Assembly: GCA_021234155.1 (NCBI GenBank)
Contig: JAJEKV010000013.1
Coordinates: forward strand, 13,431,877 to 13,495,876
Direction: 5' to 3'
Source of the DNA: Isoetes taiwanensis
Taxonomy: Eukaryota > Streptophyta > Lycopodiopsida > Isoetales > Isoetaceae
Length of the DNA stretch: 64,000 nt
Numbering within the stretch: the stretch's first letter is position 1; each line of letters begins with the position of its first letter. Positions 9,067 to 55,767 of this stretch are shown here, piece after piece. The notes beneath the pieces were generated by a model. That model did no database searches, was not told the origin of the DNA, and saw nothing but the letters and a program-made list of their open reading frames with translations. A program made the translations under genes and the position numbers.

Positions 9067-9291
9067 ATGGCGTGAAGATGACTTATGGCCTTCCGCCCCT
9101 TCAAATTCAACTCCTTCAAGTTCAACTATCTGCTCAAACTCTTTCAAGTTCAACAAATGGCGTGAAGATGACTCAGGGCCTTCCGCTCCTTCAATCACTT
9201 ATGTTTCAACTCTTTCAAGTTCAACTCCTTGTTTCAAGTTTCCAAGTTCAACACATGGCGTGAAGATGACTTAGGGCCTTCCGCCCCTTCA
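9067..9291. repeat. Three imperfect copies of a ~37-bp unit in a ~94-bp period
   Basis: ATGGCGTGAAGATGACT followed by a GGCCTTCCGC block and TTCAA occurs near 9067, 9157 and 9255. Pyrimidine-rich TTCAAGTTCAACT spacers separate the copies. Confidence 0.7.
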
Positions 9292-9625
9292 ACAATTTTT
9301 GTTTCTCATTTTTGTTCAACTCATTACAAGACACTTTGATTGGCGCATGTATTCGGAGCTAGTGGCAAGCTCTATGAGAAGTGGTGACAGCCTTCTCAAC
9401 ATTACATTTGACTTCTATGGATTTAAAGGAGCTCGTGGCAAGCTCAAGAGAAGTGGTGACAGCCTTCTCATCCTCTTACGATTTTTGGTACTTCATCGAC
9501 ATTGGCATTTTTGGATCAAGACTTTTCGGCGACATTATCATTCCTTCCCCTCACTTTGGACACTGTTGTAAATGTTTAACCTGATGTTATAAAGGTTCTA
9601 CATACTTTGGTGTGGTGGGGGGGAG

Positions 9626-10072
9626 TGTTAGCCCTTTGGGCTAAACATATGTATGAGTGGCATAGGCCACATGTATTTATCACATTGGACCACTTGATCT
9701 AGGGCCCAGATTTAGCCCACATATGTGGTAGGTGGCATAGGCCACATGTATTTGTCATATTGGACCCCACAATCTATGGCCCAGATTTAGCCTAGATCTG
9801 TGGAAGGTTAGATATCAGTTAGGGTTAGGGTTTTGCTCTACTATTTAGAGAGAGCATTTCCTCTCATTGTTTAGGTTTTTGCTCACGTTTTGGAGCACCT
9901 CCTTTTGGAGCATCAATATGATTCTGTTTTGTTCATTCTTTGCTTTGTTCTTGTTCTTGGAGTTTCTTCCCATCTTCTTTTGTTGATCCATGAGCTTTTG
10001 TGGCAGCCTTGTGGCATCCGGCAGTCATGGACTGCTGCTGCAAGGTGATGCCAAGGACCCCAAACATCAACA
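9626..10072 (+). repeat. 3' LTR of the TRIM-like element
   Basis: 447 bp, TGTTAG...ATCAACA. It is preceded by a guanine-rich polypurine tract and followed by the CTCAT duplication (10073-10077), after which copy C's LTR resumes. Confidence 0.85.
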
Positions 10073-22066: not shown

Positions 22067-22617
22067 TTAATAAGGCTCTCCTTTAATATGACTGGCCAAG
22101 TGCATATCTTTCTTCATTAGATTTACTCTCTTGGCATGTACTGTGCAGGCTGTTGAGTCTTCAAAATGTTGGACCAGCTTCTGCTCTGCTGCTTCTTGAA
22201 CCTTGGCCTCCCGCTCTCGTTCTGCCCTCTCCTCTTCTTGTATCTCCCGCTCTATCTGCTCGTACACTTCTTGGGTCTCTTCATCCATTGAACCCGGAGA
22301 TCCAATGTCCTCTTCCTCTAGTGCTTCCGTTGATCCCTGGGATCCCTACTCCTGGGTTGGCTGGTCCCCTTCCGTTGGCTTGGAGGAACTCCCTACCTGC
22401 AGGTGGGTTGAAGTCCTCGTCGTCTGAATCATCGGAGGAGGCTGGCTGGTCGGCTGGCCATTCCTTGATGACTGCCTTGACGTTCGGGGTCTTCTTCGTC
22501 TCTCGCTTGGGCTCCTCCACGCCTTTGCCCTTCCGCTTCTTGTTTTCTTCGGCCTCCTTGGCCTCTGGCTGTTTTGCCTTGTCGAGGAAGTCGAGCGGTC
22601 TGTTTGGTGCGCGCCAT
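22067..22617 (-). pseudogene. Histone H3-like gene of copy C, decayed
   Basis: The minus-strand ATG at 22617 starts MARTKQTARLPRQGK, an H3-type tail with Lys4 but not Lys9. A second frame carries the acidic SSDDSDDEDFNP block also seen in copies A and B. A third ends with VQEAAEQKLVQHFEDSTAC, HAKRV, KKDMHLA and KGEP, matching the second half of the H3 fold (end of alpha 2, alpha 3, C-terminal tail). The alpha N and alpha 1 helices are missing, and there are at least two frameshifts. It is much shorter than the gene in A. It is flanked by one family hairpin on each side and has a TATA box 93 bp upstream. Confidence 0.85.
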
Positions 22618-30193: not shown

Positions 30194-31764
30194 TGTGACG
30201 TTCCAGCACAGTATACGGTCCCAGGACGTATACTGTACTGCCTCGTCACGCGTACACGCCACCCCGACTGACGTGTACGCCGACATGTAGCTAGGCGGGT
30301 AGCCCCTAGGGGGCAACTTGCAAGGTATGTGCATTTATTAATGTGCACATTTACCAATGTGCACATTTATCTAGGTGCACATTTTTCCATGTGGACACCT
30401 TTATGCCACCTAGCCATTAAAGGCAAGTGGGCCACACCCAATTATCCCACATGCTTAAAGGGATAATTGGAAACCCTAGCCCTAAACCCTTGTCTATTTA
30501 GGTAGGAGAAACCCTAACTTGCCATTTTCGTTCCTAGGGTTTTAGAGCTCTGTTTTGGCTGCCCCAGGAGTCAAAACTGCCTCCCAGACTCTGTCTGAGC
30601 GAATTGCACCATTAGTTTTCCTTGATTCGAGCAGTTCAACAGAATGGTCGAGCTCAAGTCAGGAGGAGCAACCCAAGAATCAGGTATTTAGTCAATTTAA
30701 TAGCCTAAACCGTCTTTCAGTCATTGTATCAATAGGTTTAGCCTATTAAATTGCCCATAGTAGCCATCTAGATTCTCAGATCCCAGACATTAACTAAAGA
30801 ACCTAACTCTATGATATAGATTAGATCTAGTTCTTTAGTTCTTCTGTGATGTATATGGATGATGTATATCTGTGAACTCCTTGTATTGGGAAGGGGGGTA
30901 GAGGCCCTAAAGCTTGGTAGTTGATGCTCCTAGATTAGCCTCTCTAGCACACTATAGATTCGGCATGTGTACAAGAACCACACCGGGTTGTGGGTGAAGG
31001 GGCCAGACTGGCTAAGAAGGAGGTTCGTGTTCTGACTCTTGAACGATCCCTCTGGTGTGTAAGGCCTACCGGGGATCATTGTGACTAGGCCTAATGGCTT
31101 GCCACTGAGTGCGGGCAAGGCATGGGCTCGACACCCGTGGAGTGGTGTTCACTTTCCAGTGGGTTAAGTCGAATAAGGGCAGTGGCTCTCTAGTCACCTT
31201 GAGTCAGCATAGAGACCTCTGGGGGGAGAGATCCCTACCTGCCCCATCGGAACTGGGGAGATGCAACCCAGGAGTAGCCCCTTTGGCTATGCATCCGGCG
31301 GGCTACAGTCAGGTCCCAACACTTTTCAACCTACTCTGCAAAGTGTGCACAGGAGGGGCGGATGGAGTGGACAACCCTATGCCATGTTCTTATGCCAGCC
31401 AAATCCATTGCCATGAATTCTGTCTGCAATGAACTCTGGAGACCCAAGCCGTCAGTCATACCTTTGAGTCTGAGCCTTGGGTAGGACTTCCATATGTATT
31501 GTGCTGATCTTTGTCTATGCAGATGTTGGGTACCACCCTTCGAGGTGGATATGTGATGCTATTGTATACTAACATATATGTTTACGCTTCCGCAGGTAGG
31601 TAGGCCCTAAGGGAGACGGGGTAATGACCCCTTCACTCTTCCCACTGGGGACCCAGTATGGTCACAGTGATATGTGGAGGGCCCTGTATCAGTGGAGCTG
31701 GTATGGGGGATGAACTCCTGTTTGTATACGGTGCGGGCATCGTATACGTGTAGGGGACGTCACA
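30194..31764 (+). repeat. 5' LTR of copy A
   Basis: 1571 bp, TGTGACG...CGTCACA. It contains a degenerate TATA-like TCTATTTAG near 30493-30501 and the 13-codon leader exon of gag. Confidence 0.95.
30644..30683 (+). CDS. LTR-borne first coding exon of gag-pol, copy A
   Basis: The ATG at 30644 opens 13 codons plus one base, ending at CAG before GTATTT (donor 30684). The acceptor at 36214-36215 would join it in frame to gag, which itself has no nearby ATG. The same exon length and phase occur in copies B and C, and the exon is also present in A's 3' LTR. Splicing would remove about 5.5 kb, including the primer-binding site, so only unspliced RNA could be reverse-transcribed. This is inferred from sequence; no transcript was examined. 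Confidence 0.75.
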
Positions 31765-31765
31765 G

Positions 31766-31777
31766 TGGTATCAGAGC
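31766..31777 (+). other. Primer-binding site of copy A (tRNA-iMet)
   Basis: TGGTATCAGAGC, one base after the LTR end at 31764. Confidence 0.93.
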
Positions 31778-31965
31778 AATGTTCTTGGAGACCAAGAGCA
31801 AAGCACTGACCATGCTCCCAGTAGCACTAACTTGATAGGATCCTCAAACCTCGAAAAGTGGGAAAAATTTTCATTTTTGTAGTATATGCTAAGCTAGTAA
31901 CAGTTAAGTGAATTGGAACATAATAAGACTAAAAACAGTGAGCCAAAACCTTCTAAGGCAAGGTG

Positions 31966-32032
31966 GTCTCACACGTCGCGCCTGGTCTAAAAACAAAACT
32001 CCAGTTTTTGAACGAGGCGCAACGTGTGAGAC
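31966..32032 (+). repeat. Family hairpin 1, copy A
   Basis: 67 nt. GTCTCACACGTCGCGCC pairs with GGCGCAACGTGTGAGAC except for one C-A mismatch. An inner AAAAAC/GTTTTT stem closes the loop. Confidence 0.9.
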
Positions 32033-32157
32033 ATTGAGCCAAGAACACCTTAAAACTTCATGAATTTTAGAAAAGTAACATGGTAAATCGAGTTCTAAGA
32101 TAAGATTCAGTTAGAATAGTATGTTTCAATCATGTAAATTAATCAAAAATGTACCAT

Positions 32158-32224
32158 GTCTCACACGCCGCGCCTGATCTAAAAACAAAACTCTAGTTTT
32201 TGAACGAGGCGCAACGTGTGAGAC
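32158..32224 (+). repeat. Family hairpin 2, copy A
   Basis: Same 67-nt structure; the left arm has GCCGCGCC, one additional mismatch. It lies 103 bp before the TATA box. Confidence 0.9.
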
Positions 32225-32326
32225 CAATGCTTATAAAAACTCTGAAAGAAGTGTGTGTTTTAAGTCAATAGGTGCCCTGGCACGTTAAATAGAGCAATTT
32301 GAATTTTGACCTAAAATTTCCCAAGC

Positions 32327-32335
32327 TATAAATAG
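32327..32335 (+). promoter_or_regulatory. Internal TATA box upstream of the H3-like gene, copy A
   Basis: TATAAATAG, 115 bp before the ATG at 32442. Position and context are conserved in B (45037) and C (22718, minus strand), suggesting a dedicated Pol II promoter inside the retrotransposon. Confidence 0.7.
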
Positions 32336-32441
32336 ATGTAGACCCCCCTCATTTGTACGTACGTTCCCGCCTTAGAAATCTGCTCCAGCTCCCTAAGGCG
32401 ATCTTTGGCGCCCGACATCGGATTGACGAGCCGGGCCGAAC

Positions 32442-33792
32442 ATGGCGAACTAAACAGATCGCCAGAAGGCACGCCAGCGAATCTCCCAGTGCCCATGATC
32501 CTGCCCTGATACAGAGAATGCTTCAGGAGCGCCTCCTCAGGCATGACCAGTCTTCATCAAGTGAGAGAGCAGCTTCGGACGAACACCAAAACGAAGGATC
32601 CCAGCAGGAAGAGGAGGATGCACACTCCGATGCGGGAACAGAGGTCCTAGGCGAAGAGCAGTCGGACGTCATGCAGAAGGTTCTCGAAGAAGTGGAGGAG
32701 GAGGAAAGGAAGAACAAGCAGGAACAAGATCGAGTGGCGGAAGAACGTGAGGAGCAGAGGCAACCGACTCCCGAGCCAACCATCGAGGAGCAACTCGAAG
32801 CTTGGGTTCGAGAGAAGGAGGCTGAGGAGCGAGAGGAGCAAAGGGAGCCAATGCTCGAGCCAAGCGAAGCACAGGACCTCGCGGCGTGGATCAAAAAGCA
32901 CGAAGCAAAAGAACACCGCCGAGAAAGGAAGAGGGAAGAGAAGAAGAGGAAGAGCGAAGAGGAGGAGGCGAAAGCAGCCGAGGAACTGAAGAAGAAGAAG
33001 AGGAAGTTCGTGGTGGGCCCAAGGAAACTCAAGGAAGTTCCGCGAACAAAGAAACCCAACCCCAAGGTCGTCATCACCGAACGGTCAGCTGATCAGCCTC
33101 CGCCCTCCTCCGACGACTCTGATGACGAAGACTTCAACCCCAACACCAAAGGTGGAAGCTCTTCGAAACCCCCAGGTGATGAGCAGGCAATACCCGACCA
33201 GGAGCACCCCGACCTGGAGCAGCCGGACCAAGTGCAGAAACCCCCTAAATATCCGGCTTGGGACAGGAAGAAACAGCCACGGCCTGCCCGAGAATCCTAT
33301 GTCACGGACCCCGTCAAGATCTACGAGAGAAAGATGAGGGAACACGAGGCTTACATGAAGAAGTGGGAGGCTTACAACTCCTACTACCAGGAGAACAGGG
33401 TCAGGACCATCGAGGGTGGACATCCAACAAAGCAACAGACCTTAAGGCCGCCACCACAGAAGCCCAAGCCCCCCAAGAAGCTAGCCAAGAAGAAAGCCAG
33501 CAGGAAGGAGACCGAGAGAAGAGCACTAAGGGAGATCAGACACTTCCAGCGCAGCTACGGCTTCCTAATCCCCCGTGCCCCCTTTGCCCGTCTAGTCAGA
33601 GAAGTGATGCAGAACTTTAACACCGGCATGAGGGTAACAGACGAGATGCTGCTGGCACTTCAAGAAGCAGCTGAGCAGAAGATAGTGCAGCATTTTGAAG
33701 ACTCTACAGCCTGCACCGTGCATGCCAAGCGAGTAATTCTGATGAGGAAGGACATGCAGTTGGCCAGTATAATCAAAGGAGAACCCCATTAG
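32442..33792 (+). CDS. Histone H3-like protein with long charged insert, copy A
   Basis: The protein should be about 450 residues. The N-terminus reads RTKQIAR, an H3-tail relic. Then come Glu/Lys/Arg-rich coiled-coil-like segments, the acidic block SSDDSDDEDFNP, Pro/Lys-rich stretches, and a C-terminal 89-residue H3 histone fold. Fold landmarks are ALREIR, FARLVREV, LALQEAAE, FEDSTAC, HAKRV, RKDMQLA and KGEP. My hand alignment to canonical H3 residues 47-135 is gap-free with about 47 identities, including H3 Cys110, His113, Arg116 and Asp123 of the H3-H3 interface. Loop 1 has no insertion, unlike most CENH3. Compared with B, two bases are lost just after ATG GCG, so the 32442 ATG is out of frame. 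The body is open from TTG at 32353. A working copy would presumably make a chromatin protein; its partner histone and role are unknown. Confidence 0.88.
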
Positions 33793-33935
33793 AAATTTTG
33801 TAAATAATGAAATTTTGGTTAATACAAAAGAATTTTGAATAGATTATATGTGTAATCTTGCTTAAATAGGTTGAGTTAGCATGTAATAGCTTTTGTTTTA
33901 CTAAAATAGGACATCTCTAGAGCAAATAGTGAGAT

Positions 33936-34002
33936 GTCTCACACGTCGCGCCTGGTCTAAAAACAAAACTTCAGTTTTTGAACGAGGCGCAACGTGTGAG
34001 AC
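33936..34002 (+). repeat. Family hairpin 3, copy A
   Basis: 67 nt, the same arms as hairpin 1; 144 bp after the H3-like stop codon. Confidence 0.9.
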
Positions 34003-34134
34003 CTTGCCCAAAGTTGTCCAAATCTCCTCCAAATCGACCAAGTAAGAGGTCAATTCTGCCTAACTCGACGAGTCCAACATGTTTAGACCCTTAGATCAAC
34101 CAAATTGGATAATTTTGACCAAAATAGAGCAGAT

Positions 34135-34201
34135 GTCTCACACGTCGCGCCTGGTCTAAAAACAAAACTCCAGTTTTTGAACGAGGCGCAACGTGTGAGA
34201 C
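34135..34201 (+). repeat. Family hairpin 4, copy A
   Basis: 67 nt, identical arms to hairpin 1. It lies 193 bp before the second TATA box. Confidence 0.9.
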
Positions 34202-34393
34202 CTCCTAGCAATTTCTCCATCATAGCATATCCAATTGATCTCTAGCTTGTTGCAATAGGTTCCTTAGGTAATCCAGTCATGCTCAAACCCTCAAATTAGT
34301 CTTCCAATTCCCATTTGGACCTCAATATAGACTAGAATTGCCCAATCCCAAGAGTTTTTCAAGTCACCCAAAAATTAGGGTTTTCCCCTTCTC

Positions 34394-34402
34394 TATAAAT
34401 AG
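34394..34402 (+). promoter_or_regulatory. Internal TATA box upstream of ORF2, copy A
   Basis: TATAAATAG in CTTCTCTATAAATAGGTCCC, 121 bp before the ORF2 ATG. It is identical at 47087-47095 in copy B. Confidence 0.7.
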
Positions 34403-34514
34403 GTCCCCATTTCTCACCTAGCACCCTACAAGTTTGCTCTTGACTGTTTAGGCGATCTTCCAGCTCCCTGAGGGGCTTCTGCATCCGTTTGCTAGTCTCT
34501 TCTTCGCTAGATCA

Positions 34515-36040
34515 ATGGCGACTGCTGACTTCAGGCGATGGTACAGCGCCAGTGCCCATGCTGCCGAGGCTGATGTCAATGACATCTTCCGAGTCTTTAG
34601 GAAAGAAATAGATGTCCAAGCCACTCTGCACGCAATCCCAGCTTATAGATAAGTTCTGTCCGAGTTCCAAGCTAGGGTAGGATCGTCCTTAGTGCAGCTC
34701 CCCCCTTGCACATGCTACTTTGTTCCCTGGCAATCCCTTCAAGCAGCCTTGGGTGATGTTCCAAACATTGCCAAATACTTGACCAACAAGGCCCAGAGAT
34801 TGCCAGACTACATGGTCCTGACAGTTGACAGGGCCAAGTATTTCTCCTATACTGCAGCCTTAGCAATCTTTCTCTCCCACCGTGCCGAAAACCCCATGGG
34901 GGAAACCTCGATCCCTCCCATGGATGTGGACCCCTTAGCCTCCTCAGCAGCAGAGCAGCTCCTTTTGCAGTACCAACAGGAGCAAGAAGGAAGAGCAGGA
35001 GACGAAGAATCAGAAGAAGAGGACTACGTCGAGCTCGATCCAGCAGAAGAGCAGCGGTTAGCAGAGCAGGAGTTGCAGGAATTCGAACGGAGCCGGCAAA
35101 CCCTCAGGATTGCCCCACCCCTTGGGCTAGGTATCACAAGCCTAGCCCCCATTATCATCGACGGCGAGGAGCACCTGCTCCTCAGCGACATCCAGAACCT
35201 CCCCGAGTGCAGGGAAAGGGAGTATCGACTCGACGAGTTGCTGCAACAACTGCGGCAATCAGACCTGGATGATTTCATCGTCCGAGGAGCTTCCGACTTT
35301 CCACTTCAAGTAAGAGAAGCCGACACTTATACGGGAGAGTCGACTACTGACATCCAAGCCTACGGCAACATCAGCAGATGATGGAGGCTCGCGAACTACC
35401 GACTGAAGAGGAGTTTTATGCCCTCCAGGAACAGATGGGAATCCGCAGCAAGAGCTCAAACATTTTAATGCCAAGCTCTTCGACAACAGCCCCCCCAGAG
35501 AGAAGAGGCGAGTTCGACCTCAGGCGAGCTTCAGCAACAGTTAGGGATTACAGAGAGCTCACTGGGGTAGAGGTCGACGAATATGTCGGAAGGCATAGAC
35601 CGGGAGGCCAAGCAGGAGGAGAGTCGTCAGCAACACACAACGACAGGTCACTGAGGTACTACCTTCCCCTGCTGCTGGACGGGAGAATAGCGGTGATAGA
35701 CCGCAAATTCAGTCCCCGGGGAGAAGAAGGAGTGTTCATGCTTATTGCACTCTCAGGCTTCGGCAGGCATGCTCGAATAGCTGCAAATGTCGACTATGCT
35801 GTCCTAGTCAAGAGAGCAATAGCACTTGACATCTTCGACTTCGCCATACCTTTCCGACGGCAGGGAAGACTGGCAGTGACCACAGCGTACACCTCCGACC
35901 GCAGGGTAGAGGAATTAGTGAGAGCTTTGCAGGGCGGTTCATCAACCAACGTCCTCAGGAACTTGGGACGCTCGGTAGGAATGACCCAAGTTAAGAAGTT
36001 CCTCGAAGACAACCCATCCTACCGGCGATATCAAGAATAG
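34515..36040 (+). pseudogene. ORF2, conserved accessory protein of unknown function, copy A
   Basis: It starts MATADFRRWYSAS at the ATG at 34515 and would be about 508 residues. Regions in order are a helical N-terminal part (DVPNIAKYLTNKA, AALAIFLSHRA), a Glu-rich acidic segment (EESEEEDYVELDPAEEQ), a mixed central part (LGITSLAPIIIDGEEHLLL, LDELLQQLRQSDLDDFIVRG), and a folded-looking C-terminal part (LRYYLPLLLDGRIAVIDRKF, LIALSGFGRHARIAANVDYA, LDIFDFAIPFRRQGRLAV, NLGRSVG, NPSYRRYQE). I recognise no family. A TAA at 34650-34652 and a one-base deletion near 35372 interrupt it; copy B retains the base. It sits between its own TATA box and gag-pol. A structural, DNA-binding or silencing-suppressor role are all open guesses. 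Confidence 0.75.
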
Positions 36041-36180
36041 TTAGACTCTTGATCCCGGGGGCGTTGTATTAAGATATGATATAATATAAATATAATTTCT
36101 TTTGCACTTTAAATGTTTTGTTGATATATTTTGTTCCACAACTATACCAACGAACATATAATGCAAGAGAACGAATAAAA
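36041..36180 (+). other. Spacer between ORF2 and gag, copy A
   Basis: AT-rich (TATGATATAATATAAATATAA), suited to be the 3' UTR of ORF2 and intron end. No gene is seen. Confidence 0.5.
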
Positions 36181-36215
36181 CTAACCGTACAGCCATGACC
36201 TACTTGTGTATGCAG
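36181..36215 (+). other. Predicted gag 3' splice site, copy A
   Basis: CTAAC (possible branch point, 36181) followed 30 nt later by TTGTGTATGCAG. The same motif pair with the same spacing occurs in copy B (48482-48515). The exon would start at 36216. Confidence 0.65.
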
Positions 36216-39200
36216 CTAGAGGCCTAGGTTCAGGGGAACGACAACGCCGAGACCATAGGGAAGAACAGACCCCGCCTAGACCACCCCCGGCAAGGAGCCT
36301 GTATGAAGCATTCGGCGCAATGTCCCCAGAGGAAGAAATGTCACAGATGAGAACGGACCTCGAGCAGATAAAGGCTTTCTTGGCAGCACAATCAGAGAGT
36401 GGCCCAAACAACAATGTCCAATTGCCAGAAGCACCACCTAGGAAGAGGGGGAAGGACAAGAGAAGGAGCAAGAGGAGGAGGTCCACCAGCACGGAATCCT
36501 CCGACTCAAGCTCGGACTCAGACTCTGACTCCGAGGAAGAGGAAGAGCAGGCACAGGTCCGTAGGGATGGAAGGCAAAGGGACGCCACAGATGGACGGCA
36601 AAGGGACACAAAAGCCTCTGATTACCAGAAGAAGGTAGACTCTGCATTGGAAAATGTTTGGAAGGCCAGGAAGCTAGAGCAATTCTCAGGCGAGAACAGG
36701 TCAGGCATGGAGGCAGAGGCTTGGCTCGATGAGATGAGTGAATATGGCAACGCCTATGGTATGAAGGACAAGGATAAAGGCAGGGTGGCAACAGCCAACC
36801 TGAAAGGAGCAGCACGCATTTGGTGGAAAGGGTATGCCAAGGCCCATGGCTTAAGCAGGGATGCTTGCAAGTTCAAAAAGTTTGCTAAAGCTTTCAAGCA
36901 CCACTATGTCCCAAGAGAGCACAAGTCCAGCATGATGCAACAGTTTTACAGGTTGCAGCAGGGCAACAAATCAGTCCAGAAATATACAGAGGAATTCATG
37001 AGACTAAGGCTTTACGTGCCAAAGTTGGGTGAAAAGCATGCAGTGGAGAGCTATACTGAAGGGCTGAATGAAGAGATCCGCAAGCTTGTAAGGGCAATAA
37101 ACCCTAAGACAGTATCAGAAGCAGAGTCCAAGGCAATAAGCTTGCAAGGGACGGGGCCTCAGAATAGCGGGCAAAGGCAGCAGTATTACCAGGATAAAGG
37201 CAAGGCAACAGGGAGTTATAGCCCTAGGGCAGCCAGTCCAGGTCCAGCTAGAGCCCCGTATGGTGGCAACCAGGGGAAGCAGCAGGAGAAGAAGCAGGTG
37301 TCCTTCAAGGACAAGCAGGAGGGGTCAAACTACTCCAAAGCAGTGCGGTCCTTTTTGCAGGCAATGCCCAAGGAAAAGAGGCAGGAGTGCATAGAAAAGC
37401 AGCTTTGCTTCAGGTGTTTCCAGCCAGGCCACAGGACAGCGAACTGCCCCTACGTCATGAGTGCAGCGCTAGCCGAGTTGGGAGATTGGGACACTCCGTC
37501 TGACGACGACGGCGAGGCAGCCCGCGACTATATTCAGGGTGAGTGTCATATTTTTGCCGCAATAGACACAGAACAAGCAGAGAGCCAGTATAAAGTAATT
37601 TCCACAATAGGGAAGGCTAAGGCCAAGTCCTTCATAGTCCTGATAGACTCAGGAAGTAGCCATAACTTTGCATCCCCCAGAATGGTTGAAATGTTGAAGT
37701 TGAAACCACTGAAGTCGAAGCCAAGGCCCGTCGTCTTAGCAAGTGGAGCAGTAAGGCAGACAGCAGGTAAGAGGATCAACTTTGACATCGACTTGCCAGG
37801 GATTAATATCCAGATGGGGGCAGAAGTAATGGGCATTGGCAAGTATGACTTGATCATAGGAATGGAGTACCTTGGACCAGCAGGAGCCATCATCGATTGT
37901 GGAAAGCGGAAGGTGACCTTCACAACACCCGACGGCAAGATCATTGAGATTACAGGTAAAGAGGTTGTTCCCATCATGCAGTGCATGTCAAGTAAACAGC
38001 TGTTCAAGTGCATCAAGAGCGAGCAGATAGCATACATCTTCAAGCTTGAGATTGAAGAGCCCGAATCAGAAGAAAGCAAAGAAGACAAAGTGCTCAGCAA
38101 GTTGCCCAAGCAAATAGCTAAGTTGATCACGGAGTTCCACGATCTCTTTCCAGATGAGATCGAGCACCTCCCTCCTTACAGGGGAGTCGAGTGTGAGATA
38201 ACACTCGAACCAGGGACGAAGCCGACAAGCAAGGTTCCATACAGAATGACGACACAGGAGCTGACGGAGCTAAAGAAGCAATTGCAGGAGTTGCTCGACC
38301 TAGGCTTCATTAGACCTAGTGTCTCACCATTTGGAGCACCCATTCTTTTTGTCAAGAAGAAGGATGGCAGTCTAAGGATGTGCATAGACTATAGGCAGTT
38401 GAACAAGCACACCATCAAGAACAAGTATGCACTCCCCAGATCGGATGACTTGATGGATCAGCTTCAAGTGGCAAAGGTCTTCTCCAAAATCGACTTAAGG
38501 TCAGGCTATCATCAGATCCGGATAAAGGAGGAAGATATTCATAAAACCGCCTTCAGAACGCGGTACGGGCACTACGAGTTCACGGTAATGCCTTTCGGCT
38601 TATCGAATGCCCCAGCAACGTTCATGAGGCTCATGAACGACATCTTCAGGGAGTTCTTAGACACCTTTGTGATAGTGTTCTTTGATGACATTTTGGTGTA
38701 TAGCAGATCCCTTGAAGAACACGTACAACACTTAAGGAGAGTGCTGGAGAAGTTGAAGAGGCACCAGTTGTACGCCAAGTTGTCGAAGTGCCACTTCGCA
38801 ACGGAGAAGGTGGAATATCTGGGTCATGTGATCTCAGCAGAAGGAATCTCGACCGATCCCGCCAAGATTGAAGCAGTGATTCAGTGGCCGGCACTGAAGA
38901 ATGTCCATGAGGTCAGAAGTTTCCTCGGCCTAGCAGGGTACTACAGGAAGTTCGTGAAGAACTTTGCCAAGATAGCGGCCCCGCTAACAGACCTGACGAG
39001 GGCGGAAAAGGTGAAAGATTGGGCAGAGCATTGGCACAAGAAAGCCCAAGCAGGGTTTGAATTGTTGAAAGAAGCTTTAACAACCGCCCCAGTCTTAACC
39101 CTGCCAGACCCAGAGAAAGATAAGCTTGTGGCGACAGATGCGAGTAAGATAGCCACAGGTGCAGTGCTCATGCAGGAAGAGCGTGTGGTAGCATATGATT

Positions 39201-41026
39201 CCAGGAAGATGAACGACGCCGAAACACGCTACCTGACGCACGATCAAGAATTGCTTGCGGTTGTCAGGGCATTAAGAATTTGGAGGCACTACCTCTTGGG
39301 AAGGAAGTTCCAATTGGACACAGATCACCAGAGCCTCCAATATGTATTCACGCAACCACACCTTAACCTGAGGCAGCGAAGGTGGATGGAGTTCCTCGAG
39401 GAATATGACTTTGATATAGTCTACAAGCCAGGGAAGCTCAACGTGGTAGCGGATGCGCTTTCAAGGCATCCCCTGACAACTAGAGTGCATTGCAATGCAA
39501 TTTCGACGCTCTCCAGCGACTTCGGGAAGAAGATTGAAGAATCCTTCCCAACGGATGTGGACTTCAAGGAAGTATGGGCAAGTTTATGCAGGGAAGCAAG
39601 AACAGATAAGGAGAGAGAAACCTTCAAACATTTTAAGAAGGAAGGTAACCTCTTATACCATAAGAACAAGTTGTGCGTGCCAGAATCATCAGGTGTAAGG
39701 AAATTGATCCTCCACGACACGCACAACAGTCCAATAGCTGGCCATGCTGGATTCATGAAAACATATTTCAAAGTACGCAGCAGCTATTATTGGCCAGGAA
39801 TGAAGAAGCAAGTAGCTCGCTACATCAAGGAATGTCCGCTATGTCAGCAGACGAAGGCGGAGCAGCTTCGAATTCCAGGGGCATTGGAACCCTTAGCGGT
39901 GCCAAACGCTAAGTGGGAGGTCATCAGCATGGACTTCATAACAGGGCTTCCAAGGACAGTAAGAGGGAAGGATGCCTTGATTGTAGTGGTCGATAAGTTG
40001 TCGAAGATGGCACATTTTGTGCCTTGCAGGACTACAGACACGGCTATGGATACAGCGAAGCTCTTCACCAAAGAAATTTTCAGGCTTCATGACATGCCAA
40101 GGGAGATTATCTCGGACAGAGATCCGAAGTTCATGAGCACCTTTTGGCAAGACCTCTTTGCGACGATTCAGAAGAAGCTATCCATGAGCACGGCCTATCA
40201 TTCCCAGACGGATGGCCAAACGGAGCGGACCAACAGAATTTTGGAGGACATGCTACGAAACTATGTCTAGAACAAGCAAGGTATGTGGGAAGAATTTATT
40301 CACTTGGTGGAGTTTGCCTACAATAGCACCAAGCAAGAATCATCCCAAATGTCGCCGTTTATGATCAATTACGGCTATCAATGCCTAACTCCAGACACTT
40401 GGCACAATCCCGTGTCAAAAGTAGAGGTTTCGCAGCAAATGTTGGCCGATATGCAGTAGCTGGTGGAAGAAGTTCGAGGATATCTTCTGGCAGCAAGGAG
40501 TCGACAGAAGAGCATCGCCGACAAGCATCGAACAGTCAGAGAGTTCCAAGTTGGAGATGATGTATGGCTCAAGATCAAGGTAAAGCAGGCGAAGCTCCGC
40601 ATCGGAAATTGTAAGAAGCTTGCTCCAAGGTGGGCTGGACCTTTCAGAATAGTCAAGAGAGTAGGTAATCAATCCTACAAGTTAGACTTGCCAGCACACC
40701 TAAAGATTCATAAGGTCTTCCACGTGAGTTTGTTGAAGAAGCATACTCCAAACCCAGATGAAGTCTTGGACACTCCAACGTTGTTGGAAATGACGGAGGA
40801 GCAGCTGGAAATAGTTCCAGAATTGATTCTTGATAAAGCCTTCAAGAAAACAAGGAGGTCGGAATTTCTCCAGTATTTGGTCAAGTGGAAACACTTGCCA
40901 GTGGAAGACGCGACATGGGTACTTAAGAAAGATCTAGTAAAGCAGTACCCACAGTTTATGGGGCAATGGGACGGCAAGGTCATCTCCGAAGAAATCGGCT
41001 TAGGCATGTCGATTTGTGTAGATTAA
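36216..41026 (+). pseudogene. Gag-pol polyprotein with C-terminal chromodomain, copy A
   Basis: One frame runs from the predicted acceptor to 41026. Numbering residues from 36206, it has a Ser/Arg/Asp-rich N-terminus, the retrotransposon gag domain (about 150-310, KLEQFSG to EAWLDEM to RIWWKGY), and a CCHC knuckle ([14 protein letters not shown], from 401). The aspartic protease has DSG at 481. The reverse transcriptase is FDDILVY (Asp-Asp 827-828), RNase H has TDAS at 978, and the integrase has an HHCC finger then D1243 and DRD with [10 protein letters not shown]. After GPF (APRWAGPFRIV), a chromodomain follows (LQYLVKWKHLPVEDATW). This is the chromovirus order. TAG codons at 40268-40270 and 40457-40459 interrupt the integrase. 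There is no ATG at the 5' end, consistent with the LTR leader exon. Chromodomain integrases of this class can steer insertion to methylated-H3 chromatin. Confidence 0.93.
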
Positions 41027-41051
41027 TTCTATGTATAGTTAAGATTAATCT

Positions 41052-41088
41052 ACGCATGCAACCTATGCTAGGTATGGGTTGCATGCGT
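41052..41088 (+). other. Conserved stem-loop after pol, copy A
   Basis: ACGCATGCAACC (41052-41063) pairs perfectly with GGTTGCATGCGT (41077-41088) around a 13-nt loop. A 9-bp version is present in copy C. Confidence 0.65.
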
Positions 41089-41892
41089 TGTTACCGATGA
41101 TGGGACCACTACGGTGATCTCTAGGGCGTGGTGTAATGTCAATGTAGGCATGACCGCGTTTCCGCTTGGATGAGTGGAAGGTAGATTAGAAAGTCTACTT
41201 CTGTCCCACGGAAGTAGACGACCTTGAGAGAAAGGAGGTCATGGAGGAATGCATTGATAGGAAAAGCACCTCTAGCCCCATATATGCGTTGATAGGAGGA
41301 ATCTGGCCTTCACTCCCCATATACGGGAAGGACCTATCCTCCACGTTGGGCAACTAAAGGTGTAGGCATGAGCGGCATATAGGCATGATAGGGCGCTGTC
41401 TCCACGGCCACGATGGAAGAAGCATCCTCTTCCTACGCCGGGAGATTAGCCATGCATTTGTAGATAGGTGGGGTGGTCACCATATAACCAAAATTTTTTA
41501 TTAATAATTAAAATGGTACTAACGTAGTGTCGACCTGCAGGCCAATAGAGCGCTCCGGAGGGCAAGGAGGTCGAGCTACGAAGACTTGCAACACAAATTT
41601 TGTTGGAATGTGTTGCAAGGAATCATGAGTACCTCGAACGATAATTATATATGAAATGTTAAAATTTGGATTGTCGTGATAAGTGAAATAATTGAGTAAC
41701 TGTTTTAATGATGTTACGAATTGATAAGTTATTTCATAAGTTAAGGGCGTAATAATGTTATAAAAATATTACTTTAAGGCAATCATAATAAATGTGTAAG
41801 TATCATAGTACTATATTGTATGCATCAAGTTGTTGCAGGTTAGGAAGATTCCAAGGTGGGGAGACCCACGATGCTGCAGACAGCATCATTCC

Positions 41893-41905
41893 AAGGTGGG
41901 GAGAA
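41893..41905 (+). other. Polypurine tract of copy A
   Basis: AAGGTGGGGAGAA directly precedes the 3' LTR. A near copy, AAGGTGGGGAGA, lies 40 bp upstream (about 41854-41865), and the same doubling is present in copy C (10969-11025). Confidence 0.75.
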
Positions 41906-42972
41906 TGTGACATTCCAGCACAGTATACAGTCCCAGGACGTATACTGTACTGCCTCGTCACGCGTACACGCCACCCCGACTGACGTGTACGCCGACATGT
42001 AGCTAGGCGGGTAGCCCTAGGGGGCAACTTGCAAGGTATGTGCATTTATTAATGTGCACATTTACCAATGTGCACATTTATCTAGGTGCACATTTTTCCA
42101 TGTGGACACCTTTATGCCACCTAGCCATTAAAGGCAAGTGGGCCACACCCAATTATCCCACATGCTTAAAGGGATAATTGGAAACCCTAGCTCTAAACCC
42201 TTGTCTATTTAGGTAGGAGAAACCCTAACTTGCCATTTTCGTTCCTAGGGTTTTAGAGCTCTGTTTTGGCTGCCCCAGGAGTCAAAACCGCCTCCCAGAC
42301 TCTGTCTGAGCGAATTGCACCATTAGTTTTCCTTGATTCGAGCAGTTCAGCAGGATGGTCGAGCTCAGGTCAGGAGGAGCAACCCAAGGATCAGGTATTT
42401 AGTCAATTTAATAGCCTAAACCGTCTTCCAGTCATTGTATCAATAGGTTTAGCCTATTAAATTGCCCATAGTAGCCATCTAGATTCTCAGATCCCAGACA
42501 TTAACTAAAGAACCTAACTCTATGATATAGATTAAATATAGTTCTTTAGTTCTTCTGTGATGTATATGGATGATGTATCTCTGTGAGCTCCTTGTATTGG
42601 GAAGGGGGGTAGAGGCCCTAAAGCTTGGTAGTTGATGCTCCTAGATTAGCCTCTCTAGCACACTATAGATTCGGCCTGTGTACAAGAACCACACCGGGTT
42701 GTGGGTGAAGGGGCCAGACTGGCTAAGAAGGAGGTTCGTGTTCTGACTCTTGAACGATCCCTCTGGTGTGTAAGGCCTACCGGAGATCATTGTGACTAGG
42801 CCTAATGGCTTGCCACTGAGTGCGGGCAAGGCATGGGCTCGACACCCGTGGAGTGGTGTTCACTTTCCAGTGGATTAAGTCGAATAAGGGCAGTGGCTCT
42901 CTAGTCACCTTGAGTCAGCATGGAGACCTCTGGGGGGAGAGATCCCTACCTGCCCCATCGGAACTGGGGAGA
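41906..42972 (+). repeat. 3' LTR of copy A, truncated by copy B
   Basis: It matches the first 1067 bp of the 5' LTR with about 19 differences counted by eye. It is cut at GGGGAGA, where copy B's TGTGACG begins. It also contains the leader ATG and GTATTT donor. Confidence 0.92.
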
Positions 42973-44471
42973 TGTGACGTTCCAGTACGATATACGGTCT
43001 CAAGACGTATACCGTACTGCACTGTCACGCGTACACGCCGTCCCAATCGACGTGTACGCCGACGTGTACCCAAGCAAGGGCGCCCTAGGGGGCAACTTGC
43101 AATGGTGCGCACACTTAGCAATGTGCGCACTTTTAGGCCTTTAACCCATTAAAGGTAGACCAAGGGTCATGGAAACCCTAAACCTAACTGATAGCCTACA
43201 TAAGGCACCAAACCCTAACTTTCCCTTTTTCGTCCACAGACCTTCCGAGCTCCGATTCGCGCGCCTGAGGAGTCAATTCCAACTCCCACGACCTGCACGT
43301 GCGCCCCAGCTTGTCAGATCATCCTTCCGACCGCATCCCGAAGTAGAACAGAGACATGGACGCCTTCGGATCGAGAGGAGTGAACCAGGGATCAGGTATT
43401 TGGTCGATTGAATAGCCTAAACCTTATTCCAGCCTTCGAACCAGTAGGTTTAGCCTACTAAATCACCCTTAGTAGCCAAGCAGATCCTGAGATTGACTCT
43501 AACTAAAGAACCTAACTCTATGAATTAGATTAGTTCTTATTACTTATGTTGATATGCTGGACGGATGTATTCTGTGGACTCATTGTATTGGGAAGGGGGG
43601 TAGAGACTTAAAGCTTAGTAGATGATGCTCCTAGCTAGTCCCTCTTAGTGCATTACTAGATTTTGGCCTGTGTACAAGAACCACACCTGGTTGTGGGTGG
43701 AGGGGCCAGACTGGCTCAGAAGGAGGTTCGTGTTCTGACTCATGACCGATCCCTCTGGTGTGTAAGGCCTACCGGGGATCACAGCAGACTAGGTCTAATG
43801 GCTTGCCACTGAGTGTGGGTAAGGCATGGGCTCGACACCCGTGGAGTGGAGTTCACTTTCCAGTGGGTTAAGTCGAATAAGGGCAGTGGCCCTCTAGTCG
43901 CCTTGAGTCAGCATGGAGACCTCTGGAGGGAGTGATCCCTACCTGCCCCATCGGAACTGGGGAGATGCAACCCAGGAGTAGCCCCTTTGGCTATGCATCC
44001 GGCGGGCTACAGTCAGGTCCCAACACTTTTCAACCTACTCTGCAAAGTGTGCACAGGAGGGGCGGATGGAGTGGACAACCCATTGCCATGTTCTTATGCC
44101 AGCCCAATCCATTGTCATGATTCTATCTGCAATGAACTCTGGAGACCAAGCTTGTCAGTCATTCCCTGGAGTCTGAGCCTTGGGTAGGATCTCCCCTTGC
44201 ATTGTGCTGATCTTTGTCTATGCAGATGTTGATGTGTCACCCTTCGGGGTGGGTATATGATGTTTATATTACTGACATGTATGTTTACGCTTTCGCAGCT
44301 AGGTAGGCCCTGAGGGAGACGGGGTAAAATGACCCCTTCATTCTTCCCACTGGGGACCTCAGACGGTCACAGTGATATGTGGAGGGCCCTGTATCAATAT
44401 GGAGCTGGTATGGGGGATGAACTCTTGTTTGTATACGGTGCGGGCATCGTATATGAGTAGGGGACGTCACA
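42973..44471 (+). repeat. 5' LTR of copy B
   Basis: 1499 bp, TGTGACG...CGTCACA. It is conserved with A and C at its termini and in the second half, and diverged in the first half. Confidence 0.92.
43356..43395 (+). CDS. LTR-borne first coding exon of gag, copy B
   Basis: ATG plus 13 codons and one base, starting MDAF and ending QGS, with the donor GTATTT at 43396. Joining to 48516 would keep the gag frame, as in copy A. The exon is 40 nt, the same length as in A and C, although the codons have diverged. Confidence 0.72.
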
Positions 44472-45145: not shown

Positions 45146-46484
45146 ATGGCGAGAACCAAACAGACTGCCAGGAAGGCCCGCCCAGGCGAATCTCCCAGCG
45201 CCCATGATCCTGCCCTGATACAGAGAATGCTTCAGGAGCGCCTCCTCAGGCTTGACCAGTCTTCATCAAGTGAGAGAGCAGCTTCGGACGAACACCAAAA
45301 CGAAAGCAGGAAGAGGAGGATGCACACTCCGATGCGGGAACAGAGGTCCTAGGCGAAGAGCAGCCAGACGTCATGCAGAGGGTTCTCGAAGAAGTAGAGG
45401 AGGAGGAAAGGAAGAACAAGCAGGAACAAGATCGGGTGGCGGAAGAACGTGAGGAGCAGAGGCAACCGACTCCCGAGCCAACCATCGAGGAGAAACTCGA
45501 AGCTTGGGTTTGAGAGAAGGAGGCTGAGGAGCAAAGGGAGCCCATGCTCGAGCCAAGCGAAGCACAGGACCTCGCGGCGTGGATCAAAAAGCACGAAGCA
45601 AAGGAACGCCGCCGAGAAAGGAAGAGGGAAGAGAAGAAGAGGAAGAGGGAAGAGGAGGAGGCGAAAGCGGCCGAGGAACTGAAGAAGAAGAAGGGGAAGT
45701 TCGTAGTGGGCCCAAGGAAACTCAAGGAAGTTCCGCGAACAAAGAAACCCAACTCCAAGGTCGTCATCATCGAACGGACAGCTGACCAGCCTCTGCCCTC
45801 CTCCGACGACTCTGAAGACGAAGACTTCAACCCCAACACCGAAGGTGGAAGCTCTTCTAAACTCCCAGGTGATGAGCAGCCAATACCCGACCAGGAGCAA
45901 CCCGACCTGGAGCAGTCGGATCCAGTGCAGAAACCCCTAAATATCCGACTTGGGAGAGGAAGAAACAGCCACGGCCTGCCCGAGAATCCTATGTCACGGA
46001 CCCCGTCAAGATCTACGAGAGAAAGATGAGGGAACACGAGGCTTACATGAAGAAGTGGGAGGCTTACAACTCCTACTACCAGGAGAACAGGGTCAGGGCC
46101 ATCGAGGGTGGACATCCAACAAAGCAGCAGACCTTACGGCCGCCACCACAGAAGCCCAAGCCCCCCAAGAAGCCAGCCAAGAAGAAAGCCAGCAGGAAGG
46201 AGACCGAGAGAAGAGCATTGAGGGAGATCAGACACTTCCAGCGCAGCTACGGCTTCTTAATCCCCCGCGCCCCCTTTGCCCGTTTCGTCAGAGAAGTGAT
46301 GCAGGACTTCAACACCGGCATGAGGGTAACAGACAAGATGCTGCTGGCACTTCAGGAAGCAGCTAAGCAGAAGATAGTGCAGCATTTTGAAGACTCTACA
46401 GCCTGCACCGTGCATGCCAAGCGAGTAACTCTGATGAGGAAGGACATGCACTTGGCCAGTATAATCAAAGGAGAACCCCATTAG
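45146..46484 (+). pseudogene. Histone H3-like gene, copy B, broken
   Basis: The ATG at 45146 starts MARTKQTARKARPGE: nine tail residues after Met are identical to histone H3, including Arg2, Lys4, Arg8 and Lys9, but position 10 is Ala instead of Ser. The rest parallels copy A, with the charged middle, acidic SSDDSEDEDFNP and the 89-residue H3 fold (ALREIR, FARFVREV, LALQEAAK, FEDSTAC, HAKRV, KDMHLA). Breaks are a 7-base loss near 45306, a TGA where A has CGA near 45511, and a frameshift near 45935. The tail is better preserved here than in A, so the two copies complement each other as evidence for the ancestral design. Confidence 0.9.
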
Positions 46485-47095: not shown

Positions 47096-47207
47096 GTCCC
47101 CATTTCTCACCTAGCACCCTACAAGTTTGCTCTTGACTATTTAGGCGATCTTCCAACTCCCGAAGGCGCTTCTGTATCCGTTTGCTAGTCTCTTCTTCGC
47201 TAGATCA

Positions 47208-48336
47208 ATGGCCACTGCTGACTTCAGGCACTCCCATGGATGTGGACCCATTAGCCACAGCAGCAGCAGAGCAGCTCCTTTTACAGGAAGGAAGAGGAGA
47301 AGGCGAAGAATCAGAGGAAGAAGAAGACTACGTCGAGCTCGACCCAGCGGAAGAGCAGCGGCTAGCAGAGCAGGAGTTGCAGGAATTCGAAAGAAGCCAG
47401 CAAACTCTCAGGATCACGCCACCCATTGGGCTAGGCATCACAAGCCTAGCCCCCATCATCGTCGAGGGCGAAGAGTACCTGCTCCTAAGCGACATCCAAA
47501 ACCTCCCAGAGTACAGGGAAAGGGAGTATCGACTCGACGAGCTGCTGCACCAGCTCCGGCAAACAGACCTGGATGACTTCATCGTCCGAGGAACTTCCGA
47601 CTTTCCACTCCAAGTAAGGAAAGCCGACACTTACACGGGAGAGTCGACCTCCGATATTCAAGCCTACGGCAACATCAGGCAGCTAATGGAAGCGCGGCAA
47701 CTGCCGACGGAAGAGGAGTTCCTTGCTCTTCAGGAACAGATGGGGATCCGCCACAAGACCTCAAACATTTTAACGGTAAGTTCTTCGACAGCACCTCCCC
47801 CAGAAAGAAGAGGCGAGTTCGACCTCAGGCGAACAGTTAGAGACTACAGGGAGCTCACAGCGGTGGAAGTCGACGACTATGCCGGGAGACACAGAGTTGG
47901 AGGCCGAGGAGGCGAAGAATCGTCAACAACGCACAACGACAGGTCATTGCGGTATTACCTCCCCCTGCTGATGGACGGAAGAATAGCGGTAATCCACCGC
48001 AAATTCACCCCCAGGGGCGAGGAAGGCGTATCGATGCTAATCGCGCTCTCAGGCTTTGGCCGGCACGCTCGGCTAGCTGCCAACACCGACTATGCCGTCC
48101 TAGTCAAGAGAGCGATGGCACTCGACATTTTTGACTTCGCCATACCTTACCGACGGCAAGGAAGACTGGCAGTGATCGCAGCTTACACCTCCGACCGCAG
48201 GGTAGAAGAATTAGTGAGAGCTTTGCAGGGCGGGTCATCGACCAACGTCCTCAGAAACTTGGGACGCTCAGTAGGAACGGCCCAAGTCAAGAAGTTTTTA
48301 GAGGATAACCCATCCTACCGGCGATATCAAGAATAG
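47208..48336 (+). pseudogene. ORF2 of copy B, internally deleted
   Basis: The ATG and MATADFR start are conserved. About 380 bp present in copy A are then missing, which puts the start out of frame with the rest. From about 47233 to 48336 the frame is open with no stop, including the junction that is frameshifted in A. The acidic segment, LGITSLAPIIVEGEEYLLL, the LRYYLPLLMDGRIAVI block and the terminal NPSYRRYQE are conserved with A. Several differences between A and B are synonymous or conservative, which suggests past selection on the protein. Function is unknown. Confidence 0.75.
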
Positions 48337-53024: not shown

Positions 53025-54936
53025 CAATGACTAATATTTTGGTGGTGTTATTTGTAGCTCAACTGAACAGATTAATTGAGCAGCGTTGGGGTCGGGTTTA
53101 TGATATGGATGTGCAATTGAGCAGATGAGAAGTAGCAGATCAAGTTGTTGCATTGAAGATGAGGATAGTTCGAGCCAAGGCAGTCACGAAAATTCTGAAA
53201 ATTGATGATGTTTGGGAACACAATGCCATGAAGCAGATTTTTAAAAAATTTGTATGAAAGAGAGCAGAGGCAGCGTGTGGCAATTGTAACCACTCTACTA
53301 AACAAAACCATGCATACAGTGCAAGAACTCGATGTGTGGCTACAAGTATTTGGCAGAAGGCAAATTGATGAGCTGGCCATTGGGGATCTCATCCAAGCAG
53401 AGTATAACATCTACTGATTGGAAGATTGTTGTTTGAAAGAAAACCATAACTCCAATGTGCTGAACTTTATTTTATATCTAGCTATTTGGTTTTAGTTCTT
53501 ATATCCATATGGATATTTAAGAAAGCACTTTTTCACCTACATGGCATATTTAACAAAATTTAGACTTATTCAAATCTAATAGATATATACTTCAAGGATG
53601 TCATAATAAAATCAACAGTATTTTTAACTCTTATTGATTTTAATCATTTGTTTTGTTTAATTTTAAATCAAAAGTATGAAGGTTACCAAAGTATAAAATT
53701 GCTTTCTAAATTAATTTTCACTTTGATTTATTTAGAATTATCTAAAATAAATGCTATATAATTGAAATGTTATTTTTTTCAAAATAGGTAAAGAAAGTTT
53801 TAGATTTAGAATTAATTAAATGATTATGTTTATCTGTAAATACATTGAATAATTTATTATTGATTAAGTTTCAATATATTTTGTTTCATTAATAATAAAT
53901 TATTCAATAGTTATTATTAAAATATTAACTTTACAATTTAATTGATTTTAATCTCAAAACTTTCTTAAACGTGTTAGTTATCTCTATTTCAAGGGTTTAT
54001 GGGTTTTATTTTTAAGGTTGAATATCAACCATTGATCTTCAGCATATCCCAAGCATCCTACCAAATCAATGGCTAACATCTTTTTCCCCAAAAAATACTT
54101 TGCCACTTTCTAAGGTAGATTTCAAACATCCCAACATGTAATTTTGCCATCCATTAAATTCACAACCTTTGCATACGACTATGACATTTACATCAAACCC
54201 TCCGTACATGACCATGGCTTCAAAGCATATGGATTAATATTTGAAGAAATTAACAGCCGAATACTCTATGCCATTTGTCCAAGGCGACCTGTTTTTCCCT
54301 GCTAAGCACATAAGACGGCATGGAGGATTCAAACCTCCAGGCCTAGACGTCCTCACTAGAACCCTGCACATTGCATCTAGGTACTGAGACGATTCAAGCG
54401 AGCAAAACCAGAAGGCCCAAGATTTCTGTGAGATACAAGAAAACAACAAATCGCCCTCAATCGGACCTAAAAAGCCCCAAATCTGGCTATCGCAGGGTTT
54501 CCACGCTGCCGCTGAGGCAGATCCGCCTTCACGTGAGGCTTATTTGTGAATAATAAGCGCACAAAAATTTTGTGGGCGCTGCAGACACGACCTAGAGTAG
54601 AGATCCCCCTATGACAGGGCCTGTGCTCTGTTAGAACCTGTTAGAAATGATGGCTGCCCCTGCTCTGCTCCGCCGCACCTGCAAAAATAGAGAACCCATG
54701 TTGGAAAAAGAAACTGGCCTGAAACGCTATCCACGCCCTACAATTTAGGATGAAAATTTGCCAACCATGGCAACAATAAACTTGCAAACAGATCGAAATT
54801 AGAAATTAGACATCTAAATGCCAACAAGCTCCTCAAATCCCTTAAATTATACAGTTTCTCATACTCTACACCAGTCAAATCTTAGGCCAGACCACTGAAT
54901 TCCAAATACCAAACTAAAATCGTGGAAGTTTATAAG
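53025..54936. other. AT-rich unassigned DNA
   Basis: At 53058-53412 broken frames could encode helical, Leu/Ile/Gln-rich peptides (for example RVAIVTTLLNKTMHTVQELD), perhaps a gene scrap that I cannot name. 53450-54240 is very AT-rich. Nothing else is recognisable. Confidence 0.4.
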
Positions 54937-55758
54937 AATATAAAAGTTTGTAAATTCAGAAATTTTTATAATAATGTTATGTCAATCGCTTATCGGACCA
55001 TCGGATTTCGTTTGCAAATTTTTAGGATTGCCAAATTTTAAATTTGTTAAATCACTAAAAATTAAAATTTTATATTCTTGAAATGTCTAATTCTAAATAA
55101 ATTCAAGTGAAAATTAGTCTGAAAAGTAATTTTGAATTTTTATACCCAGAAATGACCAGAAATGCTCTGCCAGTTCTTGCAATTCCTCCGGCTTTTGCAA
55201 TTCCTCCTCCGGCTCTTCAAATTGCTCCTCCCACTGCTCATGCTGCTCCGGAACCCTATGTTCTGCAAGATGAACATCTTCTGGCATTGATCGAACAATG
55301 GAACGAAGAGAGCACTAGTGATGGCTTTTGGGTTAGAATTTGAATCAACTTTGTCCCCGTAGTGAGCAATCTCTGAAAAAGTACTGCATCTTTTTGCATT
55401 CTCTGTTATTTTAATGCTACTGTTAGATGCATCTGAAGAACGTGCTCCTGTCTGTTGATAGCTGTCCAAAACGTAAAAGCCTATACGTGTCCTCCACTTT
55501 GGTAGATTATCGGTGATATGGCATATTTAACAAAGTTTCGGTGATATGGTTATAAAAATTCAAAATTACTTTTCAGACTAATTTTCACTTGAATTTATTT
55601 AGAATTAGACATTTCAATAATATAAAATTTTATTTTTTAGTGATTTAACAAATTTAAAATTTGGCAATCTTGAAAATTTGCAAATGAAATCTGATGGTCC
55701 GATAAGTGATTGACATAAAATTATTATAAAAATTTCTGAATTTACAAACTTTTATATT
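54937..55758. repeat. Foldback element with 208-bp inverted arms
   Basis: 54937-55144 and 55551-55758 are reverse complements with about 9 mismatches by eye over 208 bp, both ending in AATATAAAAGTTTG. A 406-bp spacer separates them, and it has no recognisable transposase. It is a long-arm MITE or foldback transposon; no clear target duplication was found in the AT-rich flanks. Confidence 0.85.
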
Positions 55759-55767
55759 ATTAAAAGA

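Follow-up and report, generated by a model that had tools for sequence, protein, structure and literature searches.

Hosts silence retrotransposons through marks on histone H3, and the locus described here raises the question of whether an LTR retrotransposon can encode an H3 of its own and keep it. The window, as we call the whole 64,000-nucleotide stretch of Isoetes taiwanensis DNA that was analysed, holds three copies, A, B and C, of an element in which an earlier note had recognised a gene for a histone H3-like protein. Copy A (30194-42974) is a Ty3/gypsy chromovirus: it has paired LTRs and a primer-binding site (PBS), then gag, protease, reverse transcriptase (RT), RNase H and integrase in order, and a chromodomain 3' of the integrase. 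Read from its 5' end, the element consists of LTR, PBS, the H3-like ORF, a second frame (ORF2), gag-pol and the chromodomain (Table 1). ORF2 gave no Pfam match over the cut-off. Since its two LTRs are 98.3% identical over 1071 columns, the insertion of copy A is probably young. Four nearly identical hairpins of about 67 nt, with predicted energies of -33 to -41 kcal/mol, flank the H3 gene of copy A, two lying before it (31966 and 32158) and two between it and ORF2 (33936 and 34135), and the same four hairpin sequences are carried by copy B (44676, 44868, 46628 and 46828).

Table 1. Coordinates of the element copies and their H3-like genes in the window.
Feature	Position	Strand	Basis or remark
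5' LTR of copy A, ends TGTGACG...CGTCACA	30194..31764	+	98.3% identity to 3' LTR, 1071 columns
Primer-binding site of copy A, TGGTATCAGAGC	31766..31777	+	motif match
Same PBS motif TGGTATCAGAGC in other copies	44473 (copy B); 26212 minus (copy C)
H3-like gene of copy A	32442..33792	+	open frame 32353-33792; frame shift after start codon
Histone H3 fold of copy A, 89 residues	33523..33789	+	Pfam PF00125 E 1.1e-24; PDB H3 E 1.9e-24
ORF2 of copy A	34515..36040	+	in-frame stop and frame change in copy A
ORF2 between H3 gene and gag	34515-36040; 47182-48336
gag-pol open frame, copy A	36206..40270	+	Pfam on 36206-40267: Gag, protease, RT, RNase H, integrase
Integrase end with chromodomain, copy A	40463..41026	+	Pfam Chromo PF00385 E 1.1e-9; Chd1 alignment
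3' LTR of copy A, truncated	41906..42974	+	LTR pair alignment; shortened where copy B LTR starts
5' LTR of copy B, approximate	42973..44471	+	two aligned pieces
H3 tail MARTKQTARK of copy B	45146..45175	+	ATG 45146
Copy B H3-like gene, C-terminal open frame, whole fold	46026..46484	+	Pfam E 6e-27
H3 tail MARTKQTAR of copy C	22591..22617	-	ATG 22617
H3 fold remnant of copy C	22070..22201	-	84% identical to copy A, 44 residues
H3 tail peptide sequences			ARTKQTARKARPGE; ARTKQTARVPRPGE

Profile searches bore out the H3-like nature of the gene: the Pfam Histone profile matched copy A with E 1.1e-24 (87.4 bits, the cut-off being 26.4 bits) and the C-terminal ORF of copy B with E 6e-27 (94.8 bits), and the best PDB match of the copy A fold is histone H3 (E 1.9e-24). 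The C-terminal 89 residues align to H3, as had been claimed from a comparison by hand, and are 55.2% identical to the host's own H3 over 87 columns. The AF2 model of the H3-like protein is mediocre (mean pLDDT 70, pTM 0.36), places helices where H3 has them and superposes loosely on PDB structures (rmsd about 8 Å or more). The gene start that had been proposed for copy A, the ATG at 32442, did not hold up: it reads MAN followed by a stop, and the first ATG of the H3 frame lies at 32518. The position of the ATG at 32442 matches that of the copy B start, with the frame lost straight after, so copy A is broken at its start.

Copies B and C do carry homologous genes in the same position between PBS and gag. 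Copy B reads MARTKQTARKARPGE from 45146, and copy C reads MARTKQTARLPRQG from 22617 on the minus strand; thus, whereas the earlier note had recognised the C-terminal histone fold, it had overlooked the N-terminal H3 tail of these two copies. The H3-like gene of copy B is split over three frame segments and has a stop in addition, and that of copy C was found as its start and last 44 residues, with nothing more. The window also contains a separate LTR element (6651-10052) with 427-base LTRs that are 99.8% identical, nested in an LTR that seems to be that of copy C. Further along there is an inverted repeat (54930-55148 and 55547-55765) of 219 bases that is 95% complementary with the arms 398 bases apart, as well as a broken LINE on the minus strand (59278-62909) with an endonuclease domain and a partial reverse transcriptase.

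We call the set of copies to which the window's element belongs group 1, and a second set, with an H3 fold closer to that of host H3, group 2. In a protein search of the genome (1,658,258,908 bases in 1,110 contigs) with the C-terminal 152 residues of copy B, 150 group-1 copies were scored of 10,858 first-look candidates, so the gene is not confined to a single locus; the 30 with the highest scores were fetched and, counted from the listed matches, 120 of the 150 have no stop in the matched stretch. The protein of the open group-1 copies begins with H3 tail residues 1-9, continues with about 340 charged residues (the insert of locus L036 has 341, 76 of them acidic and 68 basic) and ends in the H3 fold, which is gapless against host H3 in all 46 folds that were read. 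All 27 group-1 loci examined (27 of the 28 loci L003-L030) have ORF2 sequence downstream of the H3 gene, recognised by its start in 24 and by its later part in the others. Group-1 copies also lie closer together than chance predicts, with 7 neighbour gaps of at most 100 kb among the 150 scored copies versus 1.3 expected, a count that omits, and is unaffected by, contigs with one copy and at least three contigs with copies megabases apart; two of the 7 short gaps fall in a triple on contig C1032 and one is the window itself. The triple (G000:C1032:11104022-11107834) consists of three H3-gene copies at 1.68 kb spacing and looks like a local tandem duplication.

A search of the genome with the Pfam Histone profile, in which 150 matches were scored of 8,705 candidates, brought out both host genes and group 2. 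Fifteen matches scored 164-165 bits, and the ten of these that were fetched are all canonical 136-residue H3. The remaining 135 scored 144.5-154.7 bits, many of them in open frames of 400-494 residues; the 20 that make up group 2 were picked by their long open frame, and the other 115 may include host variants. All 20 group-2 proteins are 411-459 residues long from the likely start and have an H3 fold 84-89% identical to the host's, and their N-terminal part is unrelated to that of group 1. One of the 20 starts MARTKGTK, and 13 keep an internal GGKS piece that resembles the H3 tail. In the one group-2 copy that we followed, an LTR end, the PBS, the H3 gene, ORF2-like frames, gag and RT come in that order, with gag 51% and RT 83% identical to copy A, which puts the H3 gene in the same place in the window element and in a divergent relative. 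A possible ORF2 counterpart in a group-2 copy (L081:499-906) was seen by eye, and the profile comparison was not significant. With one mismatch allowed, the PBS motif was found upstream of the gene in 21 of 49 group-1 loci (those of the 50 in which the fold was found), 15 of 20 group-2 loci and none of 10 host H3 loci, counts to be read knowing that the fetched stretch often stops near the place where the PBS is expected. The H3-like gene is a gene of the element and no one-off capture.

The earlier note had said that low dN/dS among copies across species would show selection; among the copies of this one genome, omega is low, about 0.07-0.12 for the group-1 fold and about 0.03 for the group-2 fold. 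The input consisted of 20 group-2 frames and 18 open group-1 frames, the latter being those of the 50 loci with an open frame of at least 380 residues and a recognisable start; median dS across the comparisons was 0.7-1.1, and pairs with saturated or tiny dS were dropped from the NG86 estimates. For group 1, the median omega by NG86 was 0.073 in the fold (dS 0.74; 127 of 153 pairs) and 0.222 in the insert (153 of 153 pairs), and ML codon models gave 0.115 and 0.248, respectively. For group 2, the NG86 medians were 0.030 in the fold (dS 0.82; 81 of 190 pairs) and 0.126 in the N-terminal part (64 of 190 pairs), with ML values of 0.026 and 0.174. When all 50 group-1 loci are taken together, broken ones included, 64% of the C-terminal differences fall at third codon positions, a partial check, as these 50 loci were likewise found by protein score. 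The H3 fold is under strong purifying selection, in loci chosen in favour of conservation: choice by best protein score (by long open frame for L031-L050 and L061-L080) favours conserved copies.

Which parts of H3 are kept was read in the 46 of 50 group-1 loci that have the fold in one open piece. The residues that we take to form the H3-H3' contact and the dyad are nearly invariant (C110, H113 and R116 in 45 folds each, D123 and L126 in 46), as are the arginines that presumably contact DNA (R69 in 45, R72 in 46 and R83 in 45), and group 2 keeps C110, H113, R116, D123 and L126 in 20 of 20. Elsewhere group 1 departs from H3: all 46 folds have P in place of R63 and 43 have R in place of K56, at K79 one finds N, R or K, and the stretch 86-90, which we assume to hold chaperone positions, is rewritten. 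With these changes at R63, K56 and 86-90, deposition may be altered or lost. Group 2 retains most of the checked positions and shows changes at 64, 86-89 and 104-105.

The group-1 tail was recognised in 42 of 50 loci by its likeness to that of copy B, a procedure that favours conserved tails and misses strongly changed ones; among these 42, K4 is kept in all, R2 and R8 in 40 each and K9 in 29, the other 13 having V (12 tails) or R (one tail) at position 9. At position 10, 40 of the 42 have P or A; of the remaining two, one has L and the other, a shortened tail (L016), has S. Since the K4 side of the tail is retained though it lies far from the fold in sequence, tail readers or writers are indicated. 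The absence of K9 from some copies, and of S10 from almost every one, would be in keeping with an escape from K9-based silencing.

On balance, we think it probable, judging from these sequence features, that the element produces an H3 variant which pairs with the H4 of the host and shifts chromatin to the element's advantage. On this view, an H3 gene was acquired by a clade of Ty3/gypsy chromoviruses and became a standing part of the element between PBS and gag. The H3-like protein would be translated from the element's RNA, pair with host H4 and be built into nucleosomes, either those on freshly made element DNA or those of host chromatin, where the modified tail would be displayed and favour expression of the element: the changes at K9 and S10 would weaken H3K9-based silencing, and the kept K4 would leave a target for H3K4 readers. 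The part of this proposal that concerns the tail is limited to group 1, because only one of 20 group-2 copies starts MARTK. The earlier note's suggestion that such an H3 marks, packages or protects the DNA of the element may hold: the histone match is significant and the gene recurs across the genome, contrary to two of the outcomes that the note had named as speaking against it.

Rewritten chaperone positions 86-90 and an altered R63 in group 1, together with a retained H4-pairing fold, would also suit a decoy, i.e. an H3-like protein that stays out of nucleosomes and weakens host silencing by sequestering H4 or histone chaperones, and the long charged insert (as in L036) could resemble chaperone-like acidic stretches. 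However, R69, R72, R83 and R116 are kept in 45-46 of 46 folds, and group 2 keeps most checked nucleosomal positions with an omega of about 0.03, and we regard the decoy as unlikely. Alternatively, the protein could serve the particle or integration by coating or condensing the cDNA, carrying it into the nucleus or tethering the integration complex to host H4 or nucleosomes. That the element itself carries the gene, immediately ahead of ORF2 and gag, and that there is an excess of short gaps between group-1 copies (7 versus 1.3 expected) is what such a factor would lead one to expect, but residues of the H3-H3' contact and the dyad and an ARTKQTAR tail exceed the needs of a DNA-binding coat, and clustering can also arise in ordinary ways, for instance by nested insertion or duplication; this, too, strikes us as having a low probability.

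The preferred reading, a variant H3 paired with host H4, can be carried one step further with the element's chromodomain. The best alignment of the window chromodomain is to that of Chd1; the W of LVKW is kept, and by our own reading of the alignment the first and third cage places are both without an aromatic residue. In plant elements, group II chromodomains are described as lacking the first of these aromatic residues and usually also the third; for one such chromodomain, a study discussed in the same source did not find the factor with which it interacts (PMC3350952). An H3 made by the element would be a candidate partner for its chromodomain. It is conceivable, though a long shot, that the elements write a chromatin identity of their own: with their H3 in the nucleosomes on new copies, these would be shielded from H3K9-based silencing and would bear a mark on which the cage-less chromodomain could land, and this would bring further copies down beside the old ones. 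In that case the tail that keeps K4, sheds S10 and often K9, and sits on a long arm would be the displayed mark.

Where the gene came from bears on a further alternative, that group 1 derives from centromeric H3 (CENH3) and steers the element toward centromeres or interferes with them. In the tree, the group-2 folds form one clade (UFBoot 95) that joins host H3 (88). The group-1 folds form another (100), whose long branch falls beside CENH3 and other divergent H3 with a support of 50-65; the CENH3 sequence used is a provisional one. A clade of group 1 and CENH3 is not rejected (AU p 0.52), and bp-RELL (0.041) and c-ELW (0.048) leave a clade of group 1 and group 2 out of the 95% set. However, AU and SH keep the clade of group 1 and group 2, also when host H3 is added (AU p 0.14 and 0.13, respectively), and long-branch attraction is likely. 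A lengthened loop 1 is a feature of CENH3, and the group-1 fold lacks it, being gapless against host H3 in 46 of 46 cases; the ARTKQTARK tail, moreover, is that of canonical H3. A centromeric origin is quite improbable in our judgement, and the two groups possibly go back to one capture followed by divergence, or to two captures. That the gene is passive cargo, an H3 fragment amplified with the element without use, is most improbable and largely refuted by the selection estimates: many copies are indeed broken, A, B and C among them, but omega lies far below 1 at the median dS given above and the gene is kept in the same place in two groups.

Proteins of similar build occur in a database family (source 'ena') of about 400 residues, many of which have a MARTKQTARK start, an unrelated insert and the H3 fold. 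By a crude pattern, 101 of the 250 database proteins returned belong to this family, 62 of them with the tail start, and some members are out of frame before or inside the fold (P0045 and P0061), as decaying mobile copies would be; that the family is a retroelement is our guess. If it is one, this second multi-copy family would hint at more than one origin of elements with an H3 gene. When the inserts of the two groups and of the database family were compared as profiles, with 13 of the 18 from group 1 and 33 of the 34 from the database included, there was no homology beyond one match between the first 19 residues of group 1 and those of the database family (E 5.6e-5, probability 66%). In a protein database search with an alignment of the 18 open copies, none of the 120 listed proteins of 2,398 covers the whole insert; the 120 cover 23-50% of the query, as an H3 with little else would. 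Among the viral contigs scanned, no relative of the H3-carrying element was found.

In function, the nearest precedent in the literature, as far as the available parts of the sources go, is the bracovirus histone H4 (PMC5423620). Like the protein proposed here, CpBV-H4 / CvBV-H4 is a core histone that a mobile parasite brings with it and that is incorporated into nucleosomes of the host and acts via its tail; unlike it, it is an H4 from a wasp polydnavirus, with no retroelement and no amplification by retrotransposition involved (PMC5423620, PMC9145170). In giant viruses, too, core histones are encoded by something other than the genes of the cell, but there the carriers are double-stranded DNA viruses (PMC9145170); the main text of that article does not use 'retrovir', and 'transposon' and 'transposable' appear once each, neither on an element-encoded histone. 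Tcn1-like and other plant chromoviruses, known from lycophytes, share with the window element the LTRs and a gag-pol with chromodomain (PMC2864245, PMC3350952), whereas SM-Tcn1 differs from it in having 5704 bp and two putative ORFs, and the available parts of these accounts mention no element-encoded histone. Gypsy-like elements with accessory ORFs, the planarian Burro among them, are also LTR elements of large size that carry domains resembling host ones, once within an accessory ORF lying upstream, but these domains are MATH_TRAF_C and midasin-like, and the word 'histone' is absent from the main text of that review (PMC6431247). It is equally absent from the main texts of both Isoetes genome papers (one of them PMC8566536). 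Among the best-ranked matches from searches of the open-access literature, no retrotransposon-encoded core histone was found.

If LTR retrotransposons of at least two groups have their own H3 and keep it under strong selection, this would be a countermeasure to host silencing at the level of the nucleosome itself. Such an H3 bears on what the group II chromodomains of plant elements bind. Finally, it would offer a natural test of which residues of H3 matter for silencing and for integration.
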